DNA of 64,000 bases from Sphingopyxis sp. (GTDB lineage Bacteria; Pseudomonadota; Alphaproteobacteria; Sphingomonadales; Sphingomonadaceae), in contig JAIXHQ010000007.1 of NCBI GenBank assembly GCA_030145715.1, positions 1 through 64,000 on the forward strand, given 5' to 3'. Positions 1 to 9,750 of this stretch are shown piece by piece. The first letter of the stretch is position 1. Each line of letters starts with the position of its first letter. The notes under the pieces were generated by a model, which ran no database searches, was not told the origin of the DNA, and saw nothing but the letters and a program-made list of their open reading frames with translations. A program made the translations under genes and the position numbers.

Positions 1-777
1 TCCACTCTCACTGGCGGGACGCTTGAGGATTTTACCCGCACCCTCCCGTCGCTCGGCGCGGTCTATCGCATCACCCCTAGCCTCTCCCTCTACGGGAACG
101 CGTCAAAGGGCTTTAAGCCCAACCAGGGAAATTACGACATTGACGGCAATCCGGTCGCCCCGGAGGACGCGCAGCAATATGAGGTCGGGATCAAGGCGCT
201 GCTCTTTCGGGAAAAGCTTGCCGCGTCGCTTGCGCTCTACGACATTCGTCAGAAAAACGTCGCTGTGGCCGACCCTCGATATCCTTACCCGGCGTTCCTG
301 TGTCGCGGCCAGAACCTCGTTTGCTACGAGTCGGTTCCCGGACAGACATCGCGCGGCGTGGAGTTTGAGCTGTCTGGCAAAGCCTTGCCACGTCTCGAAA
401 TGCGGGCGAACTACCGTTACGCTTCTGCCAAGATCGATTCAACGACAGCGACGCTCCCCTTTTACGCACCGCATCAAGGCAGCCTGTGGGCGACCTACAG
501 CTTCGGCGAGAACGGCAAGGGATTCTGGACCGGGATTGGCGTGTATGCTCGGAGCGCGCAGCGCGGGGGAACGCCGTTTATCCCGATGGCACGGGTGCCC
601 GGGCAGGTAAGGACCGACGCGAGCGTTGGCTACGATGGTTCGAACTGGTCGCTTACCGCAGGCGTCAAGAACCTGTTCAATGAACGGCTCTACCTAATCG
701 GATCCGGCAACTACGGAACGGGTATCGTGGATCAACCGCGCGAGGCCTATCTGACCTTGCGGTATCGCTTCTGGTAA
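1..777 (+). CDS. TonB-dependent outer-membrane receptor, C-terminal part (5' end outside window)
   Basis: The frame is open from the first base and ends in TAA after LRYRFW, the aromatic-terminated last beta strand of a TonB-dependent receptor. The 258 visible residues cover the end of the 22-strand barrel: alternating aromatic strands such as LYGNASKGFKPN and QYEVGIKALLF, then a late NWSLTAGVKNLFNERLY strand, a common receptor signature. It should sit in the outer membrane and import a scarce ligand with energy from TonB-ExbBD. The plug and TonB box lie outside the window, so the ligand cannot be read. It is followed on the same strand by an SbmA/BacA-like inner-membrane transporter and peptide- and thiol-handling genes, which suggests (inference) a peptide-like cargo rather than plain iron. 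A siderophore receptor remains possible. Confidence 0.9.
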   Translation, partial: STLTGGTLEDFTRTLPSLGAVYRITPSLSLYGNASKGFKPNQGNYDIDGNPVAPEDAQQYEVGIKALLFREKLAASLALYDIRQKNVAVADPRYPYPAFLCRGQNLVCYESVPGQTSRGVEFELSGKALPRLEMRANYRYASAKIDSTTATLPFYAPHQGSLWATYSFGENGKGFWTGIGVYARSAQRGGTPFIPMARVPGQVRTDASVGYDGSNWSLTAGVKNLFNERLYLIGSGNYGTGIVDQPREAYLTLRYRFW

Positions 778-919: not shown

Positions 920-2698
920 GTGATTTCATCAGAAGACGCCCTGACGAACCCCTCCGCCGCATTTGCGGCGGCCACTGACAAGGCGCCCGAGAGTCCGCGC
1001 GGGACGCTCAAAGTGGACCTGAGACATGTCGGCCGCCTGTTGTGGATGTACATCAAAGCCGACAAGATCATCGGCCCGCTGCTCATTCTTTGTCAGTTGG
1101 TGCCGACCGTCGGTGCGGCCGTCGTGTTCATGCAGATGCAGGTCAGCCTTGCGGGCATCACCAATGCTCTCGTCGATAAGAATGTATCGGTGATTCCCGG
1201 GCTCACCACGCTTGTGGTCGTGCTGAGCCTTGCCGGTCTTGCCGTGGGCGTGCTGACGCGCTGGACAAGCTATGTCCTGCGCATCCGGTTCCGCTCTGTT
1301 GTCACCGCCAATTACCTCGACAGGTGGCTGGCGTCGGACCGCTACTATCATCTGGAAAGGCGCGCGAACCTCGATCATCCCGAGCAGCGCATTCAGGAAG
1401 ATGTTTTCCAGTTCATGGAGCAGCTCCTCGAAATCGCGCCGATGTTGCTCAACACCGTCACGGCGCTGGTCCTCTATTCGGGACAGCTTTATTCGCTATC
1501 GCCACCAGTCAATTTCGGGTTCATCGGGATTCCTCAAGAGATCCCCGGTTTCCTTCTTTACTTCGCACTCGGCCTTTCAATCCTGTGGACCGTCCTGACG
1601 CACTGGATCGGTCGGACATTGACCCGGATCGAAGTCGTCCGTCAGCGCCTCGAAGCGCAATTCCGTCACCAGATGGCGGGGGTTCGCGAAAATGGTGAAT
1701 CGATCGCCTTCGCTCGCGCGGCAGGCGCCGAAGGAACGCGCCTGACGTCGACCTTCAGCCTAATCCGGCAGAACTGGCGCCACTATACATTTTCGAACAT
1801 CAAGATCATGTTTTTTGGCGGTATTCCGGAAACCATCCTCACGCTTGCGCCGCCGCTGCTGGCCATTCCGTACGTTCTGAGCGGCCAGATGAAGGTGGGC
1901 GACATCGCCCTGCTGACGGTGTCGCTACGCCAAGTCTATAACGCGATCGGTATCTTCGTCGTCCTTTATGGTCAGCTCGCGATCTTCCGTTCGTCCGTCG
2001 CCCGTCTGCGGCTCATGGATGACCTGCTGTCGTTCGAGCCAAAGAGCGACATCAAGGTGACGCGTGGCCGCGACAATGCCATCGAGATCCGCGGACTTGC
2101 GATCGCGTTCCCCGACGGCAGCCGAATGACCGAAGTCGGAAATCTTGACATCGCCCCTGGCAAAAACCTCCTGATCCAAGGGCCCTCGGGCGCGGGCAAA
2201 AGCACGTTGCTGCGCAGTATCGCCGGCCTCTGGCCCTTCGGATCCGGCGAAGTCGATCTTCCGTCGGACGCGCGGGTCGCCTTCCTGCCGCAGCGCGCCT
2301 ACATGCCGGATGGCACGCTCGCCAGCCTGATGGCCTATCCGGACATTCCCGGCCGGCACAGCGACGCCACTTACATCGGCCTTATGGAACGACTCGGCCT
2401 GGGCCACCTGACCAGTTCCTTGCACGAGCATGGTGCGTGGCATCGAATCCTGTCCGGCGGCGAACAGCAACGGATCGCAGCGATCCGGGCGGTGCTGGCA
2501 CGGCCAGACTATCTGTTCCTCGACGAGGCAACCAGCGCACTCGATCCCAAATCGGAGGAACGCGTTTACAAAATGCTGACCGACGAATTGCACGACACCG
2601 CCATCGTCTCGGTCGCGCATCGCGAGGCCGTCGCCCAATACCACGATCAGCGGCTTGTGATCGATCAGGGCGTCGCTCGTTCCCCGGCGACCGCATAA
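920..2698 (+). CDS. SbmA/BacA-like ABC transporter, fused membrane and ATPase domains
   Basis: This 592-residue half-transporter has an N-terminal membrane domain (about residues 40-340, six hydrophobic spans) of the SbmA/BacA (ABC_membrane_2) type, including RWLASDRYYHLER followed by HPEQRIQEDV, the family's conserved stretch. A nucleotide-binding domain follows: Walker A GPSGAGKSTLL, signature LSGGEQQR and Walker B YLFLDEATSALD. Fused SbmA-like proteins such as mycobacterial Rv1819c import peptides and hydrophilic molecules including corrinoids; YddA-like relatives are less well understood. The start is GTG at 920 with only a weak AGAG upstream. Between a TonB receptor and intracellular thiol and peptidase genes, it probably completes a two-membrane import route. 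Direction and cargo are inferred. Confidence 0.88.
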   Translation: MISSEDALTNPSAAFAAATDKAPESPRGTLKVDLRHVGRLLWMYIKADKIIGPLLILCQLVPTVGAAVVFMQMQVSLAGITNALVDKNVSVIPGLTTLVVVLSLAGLAVGVLTRWTSYVLRIRFRSVVTANYLDRWLASDRYYHLERRANLDHPEQRIQEDVFQFMEQLLEIAPMLLNTVTALVLYSGQLYSLSPPVNFGFIGIPQEIPGFLLYFALGLSILWTVLTHWIGRTLTRIEVVRQRLEAQFRHQMAGVRENGESIAFARAAGAEGTRLTSTFSLIRQNWRHYTFSNIKIMFFGGIPETILTLAPPLLAIPYVLSGQMKVGDIALLTVSLRQVYNAIGIFVVLYGQLAIFRSSVARLRLMDDLLSFEPKSDIKVTRGRDNAIEIRGLAIAFPDGSRMTEVGNLDIAPGKNLLIQGPSGAGKSTLLRSIAGLWPFGSGEVDLPSDARVAFLPQRAYMPDGTLASLMAYPDIPGRHSDATYIGLMERLGLGHLTSSLHEHGAWHRILSGGEQQRIAAIRAVLARPDYLFLDEATSALDPKSEERVYKMLTDELHDTAIVSVAHREAVAQYHDQRLVIDQGVARSPATA

Positions 2699-2741: not shown

Positions 2742-3074
2742 ATGTCAACAATCGACGAAATTTCGACCGAGGCGTTCGAGAAGGAGGTGATGGAATCGAC
2801 AATTCCTGTCCTCGTCGACTTCCATGCAGAATGGTGCGGACCGTGCAAGGCGGCCTATCCGGCGCTTCTCGATCTGGCGAACGAATTCGACGGCGAGGTG
2901 CGCATCGTCCAGGTCGATATCGAGGCGGAGCCCGCGATTGCGAAGGCTTATGATGTTCGAGGCGTGCCGACCTTCCTCATGGTAAAGGACGGTGAAGTGA
3001 AGGAGCGCTTCTCGGGAGCCCTCACGCGCGGCAAGCTTTCGGCGCTGTTCGAACGCTATTTGGCGGCGGAATGA
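2742..3074 (+). CDS. Thioredoxin, first copy (WCGPC)
   Basis: A 110-residue single-domain cytoplasmic thioredoxin with no signal peptide. The canonical active site WCGPC is at about residues 30-34, the buried Asp is in LVDFHAEW and the cis-proline loop is VRGVPTF, so it should be a redox-active dithiol reductase. AGGAG lies 9 bases before the ATG. It is the first half of a duplicated pair: its stop overlaps the next start as ATGA, and the same thioredoxin + companion arrangement recurs from 3968. A thioredoxin reductase gene in the same locus (7350-8330) could recharge it. Disulfide reduction in an imported peptide or in the companion protein is the simplest role (inference). It is probably not the housekeeping trxA, which normally has no such neighbours. 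Confidence 0.92.
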   Translation: MSTIDEISTEAFEKEVMESTIPVLVDFHAEWCGPCKAAYPALLDLANEFDGEVRIVQVDIEAEPAIAKAYDVRGVPTFLMVKDGEVKERFSGALTRGKLSALFERYLAAE

Positions 3075-3919
3075 AAGCCATGACGTTTGACGAAGGACGC
3101 AAGCAGGCGCTGCTCGATGACTTCCGGGAAGACGGTCCGCTGGCAAAGGCGTGCCTTGGCGCGCCCGAAAGCGGGGGGACAGAGTCGGTCGCCGCAGAGA
3201 GCGGGCTTCACGTCGCGCTCCTCAAACTGCTCGTCGCGCTCGGCGGCCATAGCCGCGATCCGGAAAGTCTTGCCTTCTACCTCGATCTCCTTTCCAGGAT
3301 TCCGGCCGGAACGAATGGCCTTGATCTCGTCCGCAGCTGGTACGCGGCGATCTGGGAGTTGCCGGGGGTCGGCATCGCCAGCGGCATCAAATCGACAGCG
3401 GCCTATGCAGACGCATCCGCCGTCATTGCACTTGTCAGCGACAGCCGGTCGCATCCAGTCGCGCCCCAAGAATGGCGGCAGGCGCGTGCGGCGCTTTCGG
3501 CGATTGGCGAAAATATCGCCCCTGCGGAGCCCGTGCTGGCGATGGCCTGGGACCTTGATCGGGTTCCCGGCGCCAGCGCAGACGTCTTCTACGGCTGGCA
3601 ATCGGCTACCACACTTCAGATCGAGCAGCGCCTCGGATGGACGATCGCGGACGCCGACCGCCTTCGGCCGGCCTTCGAGGAGTTCAGCAAGCACGCTCTT
3701 GCCGTGGCAGGGCCGCCGGACAAGGACGATGACGGCTGGATGTCCCGCTACAGCGCGGCGCTCGAGACGTGCTGGGCGGACCGCTCCGACCTTTCCGGTC
3801 TGAAACAGCGTTACGATGCCGTGAACGCAGCAGTTGCCGACGATCGGGCGGCAGTGACGGCAGCTGCGCGCAAGGCCCTGATCGAGTGTGCGAAAGCAAC
3901 GAAGGCGGATTCGATCTAG
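3071..3919 (+). CDS. Unrecognised alpha-helical protein, companion A of thioredoxin
   Basis: I do not recognise this family. It has 282 residues, no signal peptide, no membrane span and no catalytic motif I can name; composition is Ala/Leu/Trp/Asp-rich and predicted mostly helical. It is clearly paralogous to the protein at 4303-5199. Shared blocks in the same order are GTxxLDLxRxW (about residue 79), WRQxRxxLxAI (about 136) and AWD followed by ADVxxxWQxA (about 158-178). Cysteines are few and not in a CxxC. The start overlaps the thioredoxin stop (ATGA), so the two are probably translationally coupled and act as a pair. A second in-frame ATG at 3080 is possible. It may be a partner or client of the thioredoxin; no function is claimed. 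Confidence 0.8.
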   Translation: MKAMTFDEGRKQALLDDFREDGPLAKACLGAPESGGTESVAAESGLHVALLKLLVALGGHSRDPESLAFYLDLLSRIPAGTNGLDLVRSWYAAIWELPGVGIASGIKSTAAYADASAVIALVSDSRSHPVAPQEWRQARAALSAIGENIAPAEPVLAMAWDLDRVPGASADVFYGWQSATTLQIEQRLGWTIADADRLRPAFEEFSKHALAVAGPPDKDDDGWMSRYSAALETCWADRSDLSGLKQRYDAVNAAVADDRAAVTAAARKALIECAKATKADSI

Positions 3920-3967
3920 CCGGTAACGCGCGAACACTCTCTGCTTTTTTTTCCAAGGATGAACGAC

Positions 3968-4303
3968 ATGACCAGCATAGAGCAAATCAGTGAAGAGGCG
4001 TTTTCAGACCGGGTTCTGCGATCGTCGATGCCGACCTTGGTCGATTTCGGGTCCAAGTCCTGCGGCGTTTGTCTGGCCAACGCGCCGGCGGTACAGAATG
4101 TCGCGGACGAATATGAAGGCGAGCTATCGGTCGTAAAGGTCGATGTGGAAGCTTCGCCCGGACTGGCAAATACTTACGCTGTCCGGAGCCTGCCGACCCT
4201 GCTGATGTTCAAGGGCGGCGAAGTCGTGGACAGGATGATGGGGCATCTGACGCGCAGTTCGCTCGCACGTTTCGTCGAAAAGCATCTGGAAAGCGGCGAA
4301 TAA
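3968..4303 (+). CDS. Thioredoxin-like protein, second copy (SCGVC)
   Basis: A 111-residue thioredoxin-fold protein, co-linear with the copy at 2742-3074: MTSIEQISEEAF aligns with MSTIDEISTEAF and the cis-proline segment is VRSLPTL. The active site is SCGVC. The tryptophan before the first cysteine and the proline between the cysteines, both near-invariant in thioredoxin, are lost, which should raise or alter the redox potential. An upstream ATG at 3959 touches the AAGG ribosome-binding site, so the ATG at 3968 (9 bases further, matching the paralogue's start) is preferred. The stop overlaps the next start (TAATG). It could be a specialised reductase, an isomerase-like protein or a docking protein. 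The fold is certain; the altered function is inferred. Confidence 0.87.
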   Translation: MTSIEQISEEAFSDRVLRSSMPTLVDFGSKSCGVCLANAPAVQNVADEYEGELSVVKVDVEASPGLANTYAVRSLPTLLMFKGGEVVDRMMGHLTRSSLARFVEKHLESGE

Positions 4304-5199
4304 TGCCCGACACTGCATTCAGGAACGATCCCGCCCTGAAAGCGCGGGCCATCGCCGACATCGCCGACACGCCGCATCCCGGCTGGACCAATGTGGCGAC
4401 CGACGAAGACCGGCTGGCATGCGCCGAGACCTTCGGCCTTTCAGCCAATCTGATCAGCCTTCTCTCGGTGGCGTCGAACTTTCCCTACTGGGACGGCTCA
4501 AAGGATTTCATGCTGGAATGCCTTGGCGCCATTTCGGTCGGCACCGACAGTCTTGATCTGGCAAGGCAATGGGCGGTCTCACGTTGGTACGATGGAGATC
4601 ATGCCGTCGGCCCGGTCCTCGCGGGGACGCCTGCCCATGCAGTTGCGAAGGCGGTGTTTATCGCTGCTGGCGACAGCGGGGAGCGGACCGTCGCGAGCAA
4701 GACCTGGCGGCAGTTTCGCACGCAGCTTGCGGCGATCGAGGGTCTGTCGCCGCCGGAAGCCGCCAATGCGGATATCGCGGCCGCCCTCGCCTGGGACGAG
4801 ACCGTTGCGATCGGTGTCTATGCCGATGTCTGGAAGGCCTGGCAGGAAGCGATCCGCATCGGCAAGGATTTCGCAGCCGGCTGGAGCCAGGAAAGCCAGG
4901 ACCAGATCCTACAGGAAATTCGCGACGCCAGCATCGAAGCGCATGCCAGGGTCAGCCCCCGCTTCGGTGGCGAGATCGTCTCCGAAGAAGCTCATGCGGC
5001 CCAGAACACCGAGATCAACAGGATATTGGAGGCGTCGCCCTTGAATCAGACGCGCCTGGCGCTGCTCGAATATTGGCAGTCTGGCACGCCAGCCATGATG
5101 GCCACGCGGGAAACCTCCCTCGCTACCGTGCGCGCAGCATGTAGTGGCACATTCGCCGACATCCGGAAGACCATGGTCGAGAATCCGACCGCCCTTTGA
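4303..5199 (+). CDS. Unrecognised alpha-helical protein, companion B of thioredoxin
   Basis: A 298-residue protein of unknown family and the paralogue of the product of 3071-3919; see that entry for the shared blocks. Here they read GTDSLDLARQW, TWRQFRTQLAAI, LAWDE and YADVWKAWQEA. It has no signal peptide or membrane segment and is predicted helical. Divergence is strong outside these blocks, so the duplication is old or the copies have specialised. It overlaps the stop of the SCGVC thioredoxin by one base, repeating the coupled arrangement of the first pair. The 95-base gap to the peptidase gene contains no obvious terminator. A protein-handling or substrate-binding role next to the thioredoxin is only a guess. 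Confidence 0.8.
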   Translation: MPDTAFRNDPALKARAIADIADTPHPGWTNVATDEDRLACAETFGLSANLISLLSVASNFPYWDGSKDFMLECLGAISVGTDSLDLARQWAVSRWYDGDHAVGPVLAGTPAHAVAKAVFIAAGDSGERTVASKTWRQFRTQLAAIEGLSPPEAANADIAAALAWDETVAIGVYADVWKAWQEAIRIGKDFAAGWSQESQDQILQEIRDASIEAHARVSPRFGGEIVSEEAHAAQNTEINRILEASPLNQTRLALLEYWQSGTPAMMATRETSLATVRAACSGTFADIRKTMVENPTAL

Positions 5200-5293: not shown

Positions 5294-7312
5294 ATGACCA
5301 CCAAGTCCTCGCCCGCTGCCGATCCGTATCTCTGGCTTGAGGAAGTCGAAGGCGACGAAGCTCTCGGCCAGGTCAAGAGATGGAACGAGCGAACGTCCGC
5401 GACCGTGAGTGCCAGCCCGCTCTTCGCAGCCTATGAACGACGCGCGCGCGAAATCTATGACGACGAACGACGCATCGCGATGCCGTCGGTCTTGGACGGC
5501 TACATCTATAATTTTTGGTCGGACAAGACAAATTTGCGGGGAGTTTGGCGGCGCTCGCCAGAGGCTGCTTATCTATCGGGATCCCCGGAGTGGGATGTGC
5601 TGCTCGATGTCGACGCCTTATGCGAGACAGAGAACGCCAATTGGGTTTGGGGCGGCGCCGACATCCTTCGTCCAGACGGCGATCGTGCTATCGTGATGTT
5701 ATCCGACGGCGGCAAGGACGCAGTCGTCGTCAGGGAATTCGACCTCCAGACGCGCACTTTCGTCGTCGGAGGACACACGGTCCCCGACGCAAAAACCCAG
5801 ACTTCGTGGCTCGACCGGAATGCGATTTTCATCACCAGCGATTTCGGTGAAGGGTCGCTTACCGCGTCAGGATATCCACGACAGGTTCGCAAATGGATCC
5901 GCGGCACGGAGCTCGCGGACGCACCGTTGATCGACGAGGTTGCGGTGGACGAAATCCGCGTTCACGCTTTCGTGGCACGCGACACCACTGGCGCCTGGCC
6001 AGTCATAGTCCGGCAGAAGAGCTTCTGGTCGAGTTCGGTATTTCATCTGGCGCCCGATGACCAACTCCATGCGGCACCTCTACCAGCGAGTGCGACGCTT
6101 GTCGGTTCGGTCGGCGGCTTCATGGTAGCGCAGCTTCATGAAGACAACGACGCCGGACCTGCAGGCGCACTGGTCGCTTACGACATTGCAGCCGTGGTCG
6201 AGGGCAAGCAGCCAGACCTCGAGCTGGTGCTGAACCCACCTCATAACGGTTCGATAGAGGCTGCGAGCGGCGGCAAGAGCACCTTGTTTGCCAGCCTGAT
6301 CGAGAATGTCGTAGGAAGCATCGTTCGACTGGACCGGAGTGCCGAGGGCGTCTGGATCGCGACGAAATTGCCGGCGCCCGAAAATAGTTCGATCTTCCTC
6401 GCCGCAACCGATCCGGATTCTGATCGCCTGTTCTTCATGTCGGTTGGCTTGACGACGCCGCAGACACTCCATCTTTATGCGCCCGGCGAACCGGTTCGCG
6501 AAATAGCCAGCGCGCCGACCAGGTTCGATGCCGATCTTTATTCGGTCGAGCAGAAATTTGCGACGTCCGCCGACGGGACGCGCGTGCCCTACTTCCTCGT
6601 GAAGCCGAAAGCGGCGGTCGGTCCAGTGCCGACTCTTCTCTATGCCTATGGCGGGTTTCGCGCCTCGACCCTTCCCAGCTATGTTGGTCCGCTGGCGCAG
6701 TTTCTTCTTGAGGCGGGATGCGCCTACGCGATCGCGAATATACGCGGGGGCGGCGAATTCGGGCCTGCTTGGCATGCCGCCGCCTTGCGCGAAAACCGGC
6801 AGCGCGCCTTCGACGATTTCCACGCCGTCGCCGCCAATCTGAAGGCTGACGGAACTACCAGCAGGCTTGGCATCTATGGCGGGTCGAACGGGGGCCTGCT
6901 GGTCGGCGTTGCCTATACCCAAAAGCCGGAACTGTACGACGCTGTTATCTGTTCCGTGCCGCTCGCCGACATGCAACGCTATCATAAGTTGCTGGCGGGT
7001 GCGTCATGGGTCGGCGAATATGGTGATCCGGACAATGCCGATGACTGGGAATTTCTGTCGCGCTATTCGCCCTACCATAATCTGTCGGCGGACGCGGCAT
7101 ATCCACCCGTTCTGTTCCAGACATCGACCAAGGATGACCGCGTTCACCCCGGCCATGCGCGCAAAATGGCCGCGCGGATGGAAGAAATGGGTCACCGGAT
7201 CGATTATTACGAAAACATCGACGGCGGCCATGGCGGATCGGCTGACAACAGCCAGGCAGCCCATGTTTCGGCGCTGCTTACCACCTGGCTCAGAACCCAG
7301 TTGGACATATGA
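5294..7312 (+). CDS. Prolyl oligopeptidase family serine peptidase (S9)
   Basis: At 672 residues this has the two-domain S9 layout: a seven-bladed propeller gating domain (about 70-410) after an N-terminal DPYLWLEE segment, then an alpha/beta-hydrolase domain. The triad is visible: Ser in GGSNGG (about residue 535), Asp in [10 protein letters not shown] (about 617) and His in GGHGG (about 649). No signal peptide is seen, so it should act in the cytoplasm on short peptides, usually cutting after proline. The start is ATG 5294 with AAGGA 7 bases before it; longer readings would run back into the previous gene. Related S9 enzymes act as lasso-peptide isopeptidases in sphingomonads. No lasso biosynthesis genes are visible here, so degradation of an imported peptide is the better reading. 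Confidence 0.92.
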
Positions 7313-7349
7313 GAGTGGGAGCCGAAATCGCGATGGGAAGAAAAAGGCA

Positions 7350-8330
7350 ATGACGGCGAACCATAGCAAGGTGCTCATCATCGGGTCCGGGCCGGCAGGT
7401 TACACCGCCGCGATCTATGCCGCCCGTGCGGCGCTCGCTCCCATGGTTATCGAAGGGATGCAGCCGGGCGGCCAGTTGACCATCACAACCGATGTGGAAA
7501 ACTGGCCGGGAGATGCCAGCGTCATGGGGCCCGACCTGATGATGCGGATGGCTGAGCATGCCACAAATGTCGGCGTCTTGAGAGTGTCAGACATGATCGT
7601 GGAGGTGGACTTATCGCGCCGCCCCTTCCTGGCCGTCGGCGACAGCGGCACCCATTACACCGGCGACACGATGGTGATCGCCACCGGAGCGTCGGCGCGT
7701 TGGCTCGGCCTGCCCAGCGAGACAGCCTATCGCGGCGCCGGCGTATCGGCTTGTGCAACATGCGACGGATTCTTCTACAAGGGATCGGTCGTCGCCGTCG
7801 TCGGCGGCGGAAATACCGCGGTAGAGGAGGCACTCTATCTCACCAATTTTGCCGAGAAGGTCTATCTTGTCCATCGCCGCGACACGTTACGCGCAGATCG
7901 TACAAACCAGGCCCGATTGGCTGCAAATCCCAAGATCGAACCGATCTGGAATGCGGAAGTGGCAGAGGTGCTGGGCAATGGCGGGGTCGTAACGGGTATC
8001 GCAATACGCAACACCCGTAGCGGCGAGATGTCCAACCGCGACGTCGCCGGACTTTTTGTCGCTATCGGCCACGATCCGGCGACCGCCCTTTTCAAGGGCC
8101 AGATTCATCTTGACGACGAAGGCTATATCCGGATCGCATCTGGATCGACAGGCACTAGCGTCGCCGGTGTATTCGCGGCTGGCGACGTACAGGACAAGGT
8201 GTTTCGTCAAGCGATCACGTCGGCCGGCATGGGCTGCATGGCGGCGCTTGAGGCCGAGCGCTACATCGCCGACCTCAACGCGCGCACAACCGCTTCGTCG
8301 GTTACGGTCGAAGGCAACTCCCTCGCGTAG
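7350..8330 (+). CDS. trxB: Thioredoxin reductase (NADPH), locus-specific copy
   Basis: A 326-residue flavoprotein of the low-molecular-weight thioredoxin reductase type. It has the FAD motif [16 protein letters not shown] at the N-terminus, the redox centre CATCDGFF at about residues 137-144, the NADPH motif [10 protein letters not shown], a HRRDTLRA phosphate-binding loop and a C-terminal [11 protein letters not shown] motif. All residues needed for NADPH-dependent turnover are there, which argues for a true reductase rather than the oxidase-type relatives that form disulfides in natural products. It lies 37 bases after the peptidase, starting at ATG 7350 after AAAAAGG. It probably recharges the two thioredoxins of this locus. 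Whether it is the only trxB in the genome cannot be seen. Confidence 0.93.
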
Positions 8331-8481
8331 GTTAAGGCGCAGTCAGGTCGAGCAAACAAGGCCCTTTTGGACGCCAGCCCCTGATCCGCTGCCACACCAA
8401 AAGGCGGCTCCGCCGAAGAGTGAGTGCTCAGAGAGGAAAACGTGGCCCCGCCACCGATCTCTCGATCGACAAAATGAAGGA

Positions 8482-9750
8482 ATGCGCGTGAAATATCCCG
8501 GAAATCTGTCCTCTTCGGATATTGTAACACCTGCCGACATCGAGGCCGCCGGCTTACGGATCGCCGACGTCATCATGCAGACCCCATGCCTGGGCAGCGA
8601 AACGCTGTCTTCGCTTACCGGCTGCAAACTCCATCTCAAATTCGAGAATCTTCAGTTCACGGCAAGCTTCAAGGAGCGTGGCGCACTCAACAAGCTTCTG
8701 CTCCTGAGCGATAGCGAGCGCGCCGCCGGTGTCTGCGCGATGTCCGCTGGGAATCATGCGCAGGGTGTGGCCTATCATGCCAGGCGGCTTGGGGTTCCCG
8801 CAACGATTGTGATGCCGAGGGGCACGCCGCTGACAAAGATTACCCGCACGCGCGGCCATGGTGCCCGCGTCGTTATCGCGGGCGATAATCTCAGCGAAGC
8901 CTTACAGGTGGCGGAAGCGACCGCGGATGCGGATCGGCTGACATTCGTCCATCCGTTTGACGATCCCGCCGTCATAGCCGGGCAGGGAACCATCGCTGCC
9001 GAGATGTTGTTTGCTGCGCCGGAAATCGACACACTGGTTGTTCCGATCGGCGGCGGCGGCCTGATTTCCGGCATTGCGGTCGCTGCGAAAGCGCTGAAGC
9101 CCGGGATACGGATCGTTGGCGTCCAGTCCTGCACCTATCCGTCCATGAAACGAGCGCTTGAGGGCGAGACGGCGCCTGTCACGGACGGATTGACGATCGC
9201 TGAGGGCATTGCCGTCAAGACAGCGGGTGCGCTCACGCGCGAAATCGTCAGAGACTATGTCGATGACATCCTGCTGGTCGAAGAAGAGGCGATCGAGCGT
9301 GCCGTGGCCCTGCTGTTGTCGATCGAAAAAACGGTGGTCGAGGGTGCCGGCGGAGTGGGGCTTGGAGCCTTGTTGCAGTATCCGGAGATGTTCGCGGGTC
9401 GGACCGTCGGCACAATATTGTCGGGTGGCAATATCGATCTTCGCGCCATCGCCGATGTCGCGATGCGCGAACTGGCGCGATCTGGCCACCTGCTTCGGTT
9501 CGACGTTCCGATCGCGGATCGGCCGGGCGCGCTTGCGGACATCGGGCGGATCCTGGGAGATGTGGGCGCGAACATCCTCAGCGTCTCGCATGACCGGATG
9601 AGTTTGACGCAAAATCAGCGAGGGGCGGTGCTCACGGTCGTGGCGGAAGTCCAGGACTATGATCATGGCGAAGCCGTTCTGGAGGCGCTGCGTGCAAGAC
9701 TCTTCCTTCCAAGCGCGCATTTCTCGTCCGGCCAACAGCGGATCAGTTGA
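8482..9750 (+). CDS. ilvA: Threonine/serine dehydratase with ACT domain (threonine ammonia-lyase)
   Basis: A fold-type II PLP enzyme of about 422 residues. The Schiff-base lysine is in FTASFKERGA, the substrate loop is SAGNHAQGVA, the phosphate loop is GGGGLISG and a C-terminal ACT-like domain (about 345-410, IADRPGALADIGRIL) follows. It deaminates threonine to 2-oxobutyrate, or serine to pyruvate. The symbol is by family; this short-regulatory-domain form is often catabolic (TdcB-like). Start: AAGGA touches the ATG at 8482, whereas GTG at 8488 has ideal spacing and may be the real start. As the last gene of the peptide locus it could consume Ser/Thr released from the cargo or remove dehydroamino acids (inference). 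A 150-base gap separates it from trxB. Confidence 0.9.
   Translation: MRVKYPGNLSSSDIVTPADIEAAGLRIADVIMQTPCLGSETLSSLTGCKLHLKFENLQFTASFKERGALNKLLLLSDSERAAGVCAMSAGNHAQGVAYHARRLGVPATIVMPRGTPLTKITRTRGHGARVVIAGDNLSEALQVAEATADADRLTFVHPFDDPAVIAGQGTIAAEMLFAAPEIDTLVVPIGGGGLISGIAVAAKALKPGIRIVGVQSCTYPSMKRALEGETAPVTDGLTIAEGIAVKTAGALTREIVRDYVDDILLVEEEAIERAVALLLSIEKTVVEGAGGVGLGALLQYPEMFAGRTVGTILSGGNIDLRAIADVAMRELARSGHLLRFDVPIADRPGALADIGRILGDVGANILSVSHDRMSLTQNQRGAVLTVVAEVQDYDHGEAVLEALRARLFLPSAHFSSGQQRIS

Follow-up and report, generated by a model that had tools for sequence, protein, structure and literature searches.

A protein family coupled to thioredoxin within candidate peptide import-and-degradation loci of Sphingopyxis and other proteobacteria

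In a 64,000-nucleotide stretch of Sphingopyxis sp. DNA (GenBank assembly GCA_030145715.1, contig JAIXHQ010000007.1, positions 1 to 64,000; here called the window), two related proteins of 282 and 298 residues, P1 and P2, are each encoded by a gene that overlaps a thioredoxin gene. We found that this thioredoxin (Trx)-P pair lies within what looks like a whole import-and-degradation gene set, a setting missed by an earlier note that had been made from the sequence alone. Across 25 loci that encode P, a thioredoxin and a TonB-dependent receptor are each present in 24, an SbmA-type ATP-binding cassette (ABC) transporter in 23 and a peptidase in 22. On balance, and with modest confidence, we favour the reading that these loci import disulfide-containing peptides by a TonB-dependent route and degrade them reductively, P acting as an adaptor bound to thioredoxin. 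The observations behind it are gene content, gene order, homology, gene fusions and the lack of a conserved cysteine in P.

The coupling of P to thioredoxin is close in most of the collection, which comprises 28 non-redundant P copies (three from genome G281 and two from the window). A thioredoxin gene stands directly upstream of P in 20 copies, mostly overlapping it, and thioredoxin and P form a single chain in five; thioredoxin is adjacent or fused in 25 of the 28 and lies within the same cluster in 27. The strong coupling described in the earlier note is therefore borne out, and its word 'obligate' goes too far. Absence of thioredoxin beside homologues, which the note had named as evidence against the pairing, is not the rule, being seen for one of the 28 copies (genome G1158), where P follows a TonB receptor and no thioredoxin occurs in the stretch read. 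The order in Methylobacterium currus is P, SbmA/BacA-like transporter, thioredoxin, and one G281 copy is flanked by a FecR fragment (identified by eye) and the ABC gene, within a cluster that also contains two Trx-P pairs. All 26 thioredoxins or fusions inspected, 24 by script and 2 by eye, carry a CxxC motif.

The Trx-P fusions measure 421 (G1303), 442 (G1207), 428 (G1166), 417 (Klebsiella pneumoniae plasmid) and 412 residues (Burkholderia glumae plasmid), and two public records annotate them as thioredoxin or thioredoxin-domain protein. On the B. glumae plasmid pwszb (locus L147), the fusion lies beside TonB/ExbB/ExbD and ABC transporter genes, with dimethylsulfone monooxygenase and flavin mononucleotide (FMN) reductase genes close by. 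P can also be joined to a peptidase. In G1209, a P domain of about 300 residues runs into an S9 peptidase in one frame of 935 residues; a separate thioredoxin gene directly precedes it, and a gene resembling the L-cysteine desulfhydrase Cds1 lies downstream. In Novosphingobium olei, an S9 peptidase of the same type is a separate gene after P. Because the P-S9 fusion is known from one genome, it may stem from a lost stop codon. With thioredoxin as its fusion partner in several genomes and a peptidase in one, where it stands between thioredoxin and peptidase, P thus follows an adaptor-like pattern.

The peptidase type varies from locus to locus (TldD/TldE, M3, S9, M16 or S8) and the Trx-P pair is constant. 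In Sphingomonas populi, the order is receptor, ABC transporter, TldE, TldD, thioredoxin, P, thioredoxin reductase (TrxB), M3 oligopeptidase and Cds1-like enzyme. Cds1-like genes are present in 13 of 25 loci and TrxB genes in 7, the window included. The Cds1-like share is inflated because four loci were found through Cds1; among the 21 found without that scan, 9 have the gene. The transporter was counted from annotation alone on the B. glumae, S. parapaucimobilis and Sphingomonas sp. NY01 plasmids, as was the Cds1-like gene in S. parapaucimobilis. At the Sphingobium cyanobacteriorum locus, which lies at a contig edge, an upstream receptor and ABC transporter were not seen. The K. pneumoniae, B. 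glumae and M. currus loci carry annotations for TonB/ExbB/ExbD genes, sigma factor/FecR genes or both; in other P loci, TonB/ExbB/ExbD, extracytoplasmic function (ECF) sigma factor and FecR genes were labelled by eye or by BLAST. The neighbouring genes make likely the peptide-handling role that the earlier note had suggested.

These gene sets suggest a possible sequence of events. A disulfide-containing or thiol-rich peptide would cross the outer membrane through the TonB receptor and reach the cytosol through the SbmA/BacA/BclA-type ABC transporter. There, P bound to thioredoxin would hold the incoming peptide while thioredoxin opens its disulfides, the TrxB of the locus recharging thioredoxin. 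P would then pass the peptide to a peptidase, and the reduced chain would be digested by the S9 enzyme in the window and by TldD/TldE, M3 or S9 enzymes elsewhere, none of which is known to act in export. Pyridoxal phosphate (PLP) enzymes would remove released amino acids such as cysteine and hydroxy amino acids, a Cds1-like enzyme in other loci and possibly the threonine ammonia-lyase in the window. In this scheme, the import direction, the cytosolic location, the substrate, the binding of P to thioredoxin, its adaptor role and the flux are what we infer. The import may serve nutrition, detoxification of defence peptides or iron piracy.

P1 and P2 are 32% identical across 176 residues (BLASTP, E 9e-17) and, judged by their sequences, are true paralogues. 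Their reading frames, lengths and overlaps with their own thioredoxin genes are as the earlier note gave them, and the blocks GTxxLDLxRxW, WRQxRxxLxAI and AWD...ADVxxxWQxA that it had listed occur in order in both. Its description of the two as divergent paralogues agrees with hidden Markov model (HMM) scores far above those of shuffled sequences. The family has two branches, one window-like (P1, P2 and one G281 copy) and one larger, which hhalign aligns at E 5.1e-5 over 180 columns (probability 67%). An HMM from the larger branch alone gave 25.0 bits for P1, 30.3 for P2, 49.3 for G281 Pa and 36.9-81.3 for four fusion or distant members. With 1000 shuffles each, the maxima were 10.4 bits for P1 and 7.1 for P2, and the best over all seven scored members was 12.6.

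Searches of Pfam and NCBIfam with P1 and P2 gave nothing significant (best E 0.5 and 0.098), and a PDB sequence search with P1 gave no match. A known-family identity for P was also sought in Pfam, NCBIfam, PHROGs and PDB sequences and set aside, as these returned weak matches only; the leading E values over all P scans were 0.012 (Pfam), 0.018 (NCBIfam) and 0.026 (PDB). The earlier note had recognised no domain, and this holds: P is a family lacking a Pfam or NCBIfam model, and from its sequence the thioredoxin partner looks new. P has no conserved cysteine, with at most 5 cysteines in any alignment column among 25 sequences. A role as a redox client of thioredoxin, one of the note's two suggestions, is therefore unlikely.

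With a six-sequence alignment, AlphaFold2 modelled the S. populi P at a mean predicted local distance difference test (pLDDT) score of 87.4 and a predicted template modelling (pTM) score of 0.83 (five models, 81.7-87.4), and P1 at 82.1 and 0.76 (five models, 64.4-82.1). The P1 model is the less firm of the two, and P is predicted to be essentially all-helical. The note had proposed structure prediction of each protein alone; this gave a helical P1, and Foldseek found nothing in the PDB at E <= 0.001 with either P model. The top structural neighbour of both models is 2q9r, a DUF416 protein, with Z scores of 9.8 (148 residues, root mean square deviation (rmsd) 3.7) and 7.3 (140 residues, rmsd 4.8); the rows after it have Z scores of 6.0 and 5.5. 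Unrelated helical proteins also reach Z scores of this order. Membership of DUF416 (PF04222), the family to which Escherichia coli YjaG presumably belongs, was rejected: there was no Pfam match, and an HMM-HMM comparison, the kind of search that the note had called for, was negative against five DUF416 proteins (hhalign, E 0.58 and 0.46). The VIA-align lists have no tetratricopeptide repeat (TPR) entry near the top, which carries no weight either way.

Among the viral structures of BFVD, one phage protein matches the P model (E 2.5e-5, probability 1.00, TM scores 0.50/0.58, rmsd 10.3). Four alanine-rich relatives, namely a G1347 protein, a protein of Xanthomonas phage phiXaf18 and two plasmid proteins (examples are phiXaf18_37 and QFR59591.1), match P over their first ~130 residues at 20.6-50.8 bits, with shuffle maxima of 5.7-13.4. 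The phiXaf18 relative is encoded at L137:1465-2319 and the others in L138, L139 and L132, and they have long alanine-rich repeat tails. Given the phage structure match and the N-terminal sequence matches, we place P as a specialised branch within a broader superfamily that extends to phages and plasmids, a relationship that the earlier note had also missed.

The PLP enzyme of the P loci is closest, by sequence, to L-cysteine desulfhydrase Cds1: the S. populi protein scores 540.3 bits against NF052478, under its cut-off of 600, and 152.9 bits against the next model. Cds1 of Mycobacterium tuberculosis is described as converting cysteine to H2S and pyruvate (PMC8389258). The place that threonine ammonia-lyase takes in the window is occupied in G029 by an L-serine ammonia-lyase, downstream of TrxB. 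All four tested genomes with a locus TrxB (G000, the window's own genome, G281, G242 and G029) have a second TrxB elsewhere. The window TrxB is 69-79% identical to other P-locus TrxBs and 57% identical to its own genome's second copy (G000:C14), whose matched stretch (G000:C14:20376-21365) contains a single in-frame TGA.

Several side observations concern the M3 peptidase and its neighbours. The M3-Cds1-like pair is also found without P (L029, L031 and L026); in L029 and L031, it adjoins a large gene that by eye resembles 5-oxoprolinase, which suggests a catabolic set for glutathione or gamma-glutamyl peptides. Between P and the M3 gene of G361 (L021:9290-9478), there is only a 62-residue open reading frame (ORF) with a 17-residue TrxB match, as though this operon copy had lost its TrxB gene. 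In G036 (L024:10300-12612), the M3 peptidase gene lies in two open frames.

A number of points weigh against import and reductive degradation with P as adaptor. The gene set is not uniform: the B. glumae and G977 loci show no peptidase, TrxB is absent from 18 of 25 loci and Cds1 from 12, and no Cds1-like gene was found in the window or elsewhere in its genome, which is 87.8% complete. The G029 contig carries TrxB and Cds1 some 20 kb away from P. An adjacent thioredoxin is absent for 3 of 28 P copies, and G1158 also lacks a transporter and peptidase. The K. pneumoniae locus came from a Trx-P query, which is biased to fusions; the count of adjacent or fused thioredoxins is otherwise 24 of 27. 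No thioredoxin or transporter was found around the phage and plasmid relatives in three stretches of ~4 kb and one of 20 kb. The TrxB identities do not separate cleanly: the window copy is 68% identical to the non-locus TrxB of G242, close to the 69% for the G281 locus copy. The S8 peptidase of M. currus has RTX repeats and is apparently secreted, and FusC-like M16 enzymes reside in the periplasm, so some of the peptidases are perhaps not cytosolic. The putative direction of transport is taken from the transporter family.

The comparison set calls for similar caution. Among 76 Cds1-like loci without P, we scored thioredoxin in 1, M3 peptidase in 4, serine/threonine lyase in 7 and ABC transporter and TldD/TldE in none; the set is taxonomically wider, consists partly of shorter contigs and was scored with P-locus reference proteins, so the contrast is indicative only. 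It also scored no TonB receptors, though some were present by eye.

The closest known kind of system is protease-associated TonB import, as in Fus and YddB-PqqL (PMC6793856). As described there, a TonB receptor and a processing protease are clustered, distribution is sporadic and proteases differ between clusters. P loci share these traits, and in two of the 25, on the plasmids of K. pneumoniae and of Sphingomonas sp. NY01, an M16 peptidase adjoins the receptor (one of them from annotation only). They differ in their usual peptidases (TldD/TldE, M3 or S9) and in adding a thioredoxin-P module, an SbmA/BclA-type ABC transporter, a Cds1-like desulfhydrase and TrxB; the main difference is the thioredoxin-P module, whose site would be cytosolic. 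A term search of the main text of PMC6793856 finds no mention of thioredoxin, TldD or an ABC transporter.

The window transporter has, like BclA, a PF05992 membrane domain together with an ATPase domain (PMC12003926). Its domain content identifies it as SbmA/BacA-like, with a BclA-like layout, and suggests a role in import, transporters of this class being defined by uptake of antimicrobial or NCR-type peptides. It differs from the described transporters in being tied to an operon with a receptor, thioredoxins and a peptidase; the main text of PMC12003926 never mentions thioredoxin. The Trx-P fusions recall the CnoX chaperedoxins (PMC6282202), in which an N-terminal thioredoxin is followed by a helical domain. 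In CnoX, however, that domain is a TPR domain and the setting described is general stress protection rather than import, and P is usually a separate protein; Pfam scans of P gave no match to a TPR model. Titles and abstracts listed in searches of the open-access literature yielded no published gene set combining TonB receptor, SbmA-type transporter, thioredoxin and peptidase, and the reduce-then-digest step looks new.

An alternative that we consider unlikely is iron piracy of the Fus type, in which an iron-sulfur or metal-cysteine protein would be imported and thioredoxin-P and the peptidases would strip off cysteine-bound metal, with iron as the prize. Several features fit: release of cysteine would account for Cds1, the partial window receptor and the G242 receptor match TonB siderophore-receptor models best, sigma factor/FecR regulators occur in several P loci, and a heme-binding protein gene lies about 9 kb from P in the NY01 stretch. 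The receptor-adjacent M16 peptidases of the K. pneumoniae and NY01 plasmids also resemble FusC/PqqL as described in PMC6793856. However, no M16 gene was seen in the window, which has an S9 peptidase where a FusC/PqqL-like protease would stand, or in 22 other P loci, and the transporter family is one of peptide importers.

We give little credence to a pathway for ribosomally synthesized and post-translationally modified peptides (RiPPs), in which TldD/TldE would trim the leader, P would bind the precursor, thioredoxin would set the thiols and the ABC transporter would export the product. TldD and TldE do act in RiPP maturation, which favours this proposal, as do two weak matches: one of 10 P members to the NCBIfam RiPP maturation protein ApyI (E 0.018) and the N. 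olei S9 peptidase to a lasso isopeptidase model (69 bits, cut-off 400). Yet the G029 and S. populi genes run end to end, leaving no intergenic room for a precursor; no recurrent modifying enzyme was seen among the labelled genes and no precursor was recognised among the ORFs read, no RiPP-specific search having been made and the window being cut at its left end; and the loci instead contain an importer-type transporter, a receptor and catabolic lyases. Still less probable is that thioredoxin recycles P as an enzyme or redox client and that the rest of the locus is a separate uptake operon. In favour, P adjoins thioredoxin, and the window and G281 clusters include TrxB as well; against it, no cysteine is conserved across the 25 P sequences, the G1209 protein joins P to an S9 peptidase, and loci from alpha-, beta- and gammaproteobacteria repeatedly have a transporter and a receptor beside P.

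The Sphingopyxis locus itself comprises nine genes in a common direction on the + strand, from the TonB receptor to threonine ammonia-lyase, which is a possible last member of the gene set (Table 1). The window begins at contig base 1 (G000:C7:1). The receptor is incomplete because the contig start cuts its gene, and its TIGR01783 score lies below the cut-off because the protein is partial. The transporter exceeds the cut-offs of PF06472 (114.7 bits), PF05992 (55.8 bits, cut-off 24) and PF00005 (66.7 bits, cut-off 25), and is 52% identical to the ABC transporter of the G281 locus and 32% to that of S. populi. The two thioredoxins are 47% identical across 107 residues. By eye, no signal peptide was seen in thioredoxin 1 or the S9 peptidase; the start of the latter was taken as the ATG at 5294, the longest ORF beginning at 5144.

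Table 1. Genes of the Sphingopyxis locus in window coordinates, with E values of model matches unless bits are stated.
Feature	Position	Strand	Model matches and remarks
TonB-dependent receptor, C-terminal part	265-777	+	PF00593 1.4e-17; TIGR01783 5.2e-21, below cut-off
SbmA/BacA-like ABC transporter with own ATPase domain (BclA-like layout)	920-2698	+	start codon provisional
Thioredoxin 1, CGPC active site	2742-3074	+	PF00085 1.1e-27; TIGR01068 96.5 bits (cut-off 96.8)
P1, 282 residues	3071-3919	+	4-nucleotide overlap with thioredoxin 1
Thioredoxin 2, CGVC active site	3959-4303	+	PF00085 1.6e-21
P2, 298 residues, paralogue of P1	4303-5199	+	1-nucleotide overlap with thioredoxin 2
S9 prolyl-oligopeptidase-type peptidase	5294-7312	+	PF00326 2.8e-46; PF02897 1.1e-25
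Thioredoxin reductase (TrxB)	7317-8330	+	TIGR01292 385.1 bits (cut-off 343.45)
Threonine ammonia-lyase (PLP)	8470-9750	+	NF005600 558.3 bits (cut-off 496)

The P copies were gathered by several searches. A single-sequence search with P1 at the level of the taxonomic family matched 3 of 298 genomes, including the window's own and one marginal match. A five-sequence profile matched 7 of 397 genomes in the family and, of 385 in the class, just the window's own genome; a 14-sequence profile matched 7 of 396 in the order (including the window's own and G080) and 7 of 398 in the phylum (including the window's own and G1347). Named genomes were scanned with a Cds1-like protein, and the best 80 of at least 594 relatives were taken as loci. 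P was present in four of these 80 (S. populi, S. yabuuchiae, Sphingobium cyanobacteriorum and N. olei); by record title, the 80 are spread widely, over actinomycetes, Photobacterium, Vibrio, Microvirga and others. Further P copies came from plasmids of N. capsulatum, S. parapaucimobilis, Sphingomonas sp. NY01, M. currus, K. pneumoniae and B. glumae. No match was found with P1 as a single sequence in plasmids and viral contigs or with P2 in phages; the K. pneumoniae fusion gene, searched as DNA, had no match in E. coli genomes and matched only its own record among plasmids.

G954, a genome of the window's taxonomic family, and the N. capsulatum plasmid encode the same P sequence, which was counted once. 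Left out of the counts were G048 (E 7.8e-4, surroundings unlike a P locus, missed by the family HMM), G080 (E 8.1e-4, 59 residues, two in-frame TGA), the Cupriavidus necator plasmid pBB1 (match spanning half of a Trx-P fusion) and, as distant superfamily, G1347/L132 and the three phage and plasmid proteins. Among Burkholderia and Paraburkholderia plasmids, 51 Burkholderia records and a further 2 matched, and one (B. glumae pwszb) was counted; in the 16 Burkholderia records listed, the P position is annotated as trxA thioredoxin.

To our knowledge, the fate of disulfide-locked peptides after SbmA/BacA-type uptake has been little studied. Cysteine-rich defence peptides are common in plants, and carriers of P loci have plant links by record source (Chinese cabbage, mango, tomato and rice) or species name (poplar). 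A bolder and more tentative proposal, which we hold to be possible rather than probable, is that P is the founder of a group of thioredoxin-dedicated peptide adaptors, in effect a split, non-TPR chaperedoxin from a superfamily shared with phages, that would convert SbmA-type TonB import systems to the reduction and digestion of disulfide-rich peptides, letting bacteria feed on or disarm host defensin-like peptides. These loci unite a receptor and a transporter with peptidases and a thioredoxin system of their own, a unit in which P may link reduction to proteolysis, and the natural Trx-P fusions make the adaptor claim easy to test.

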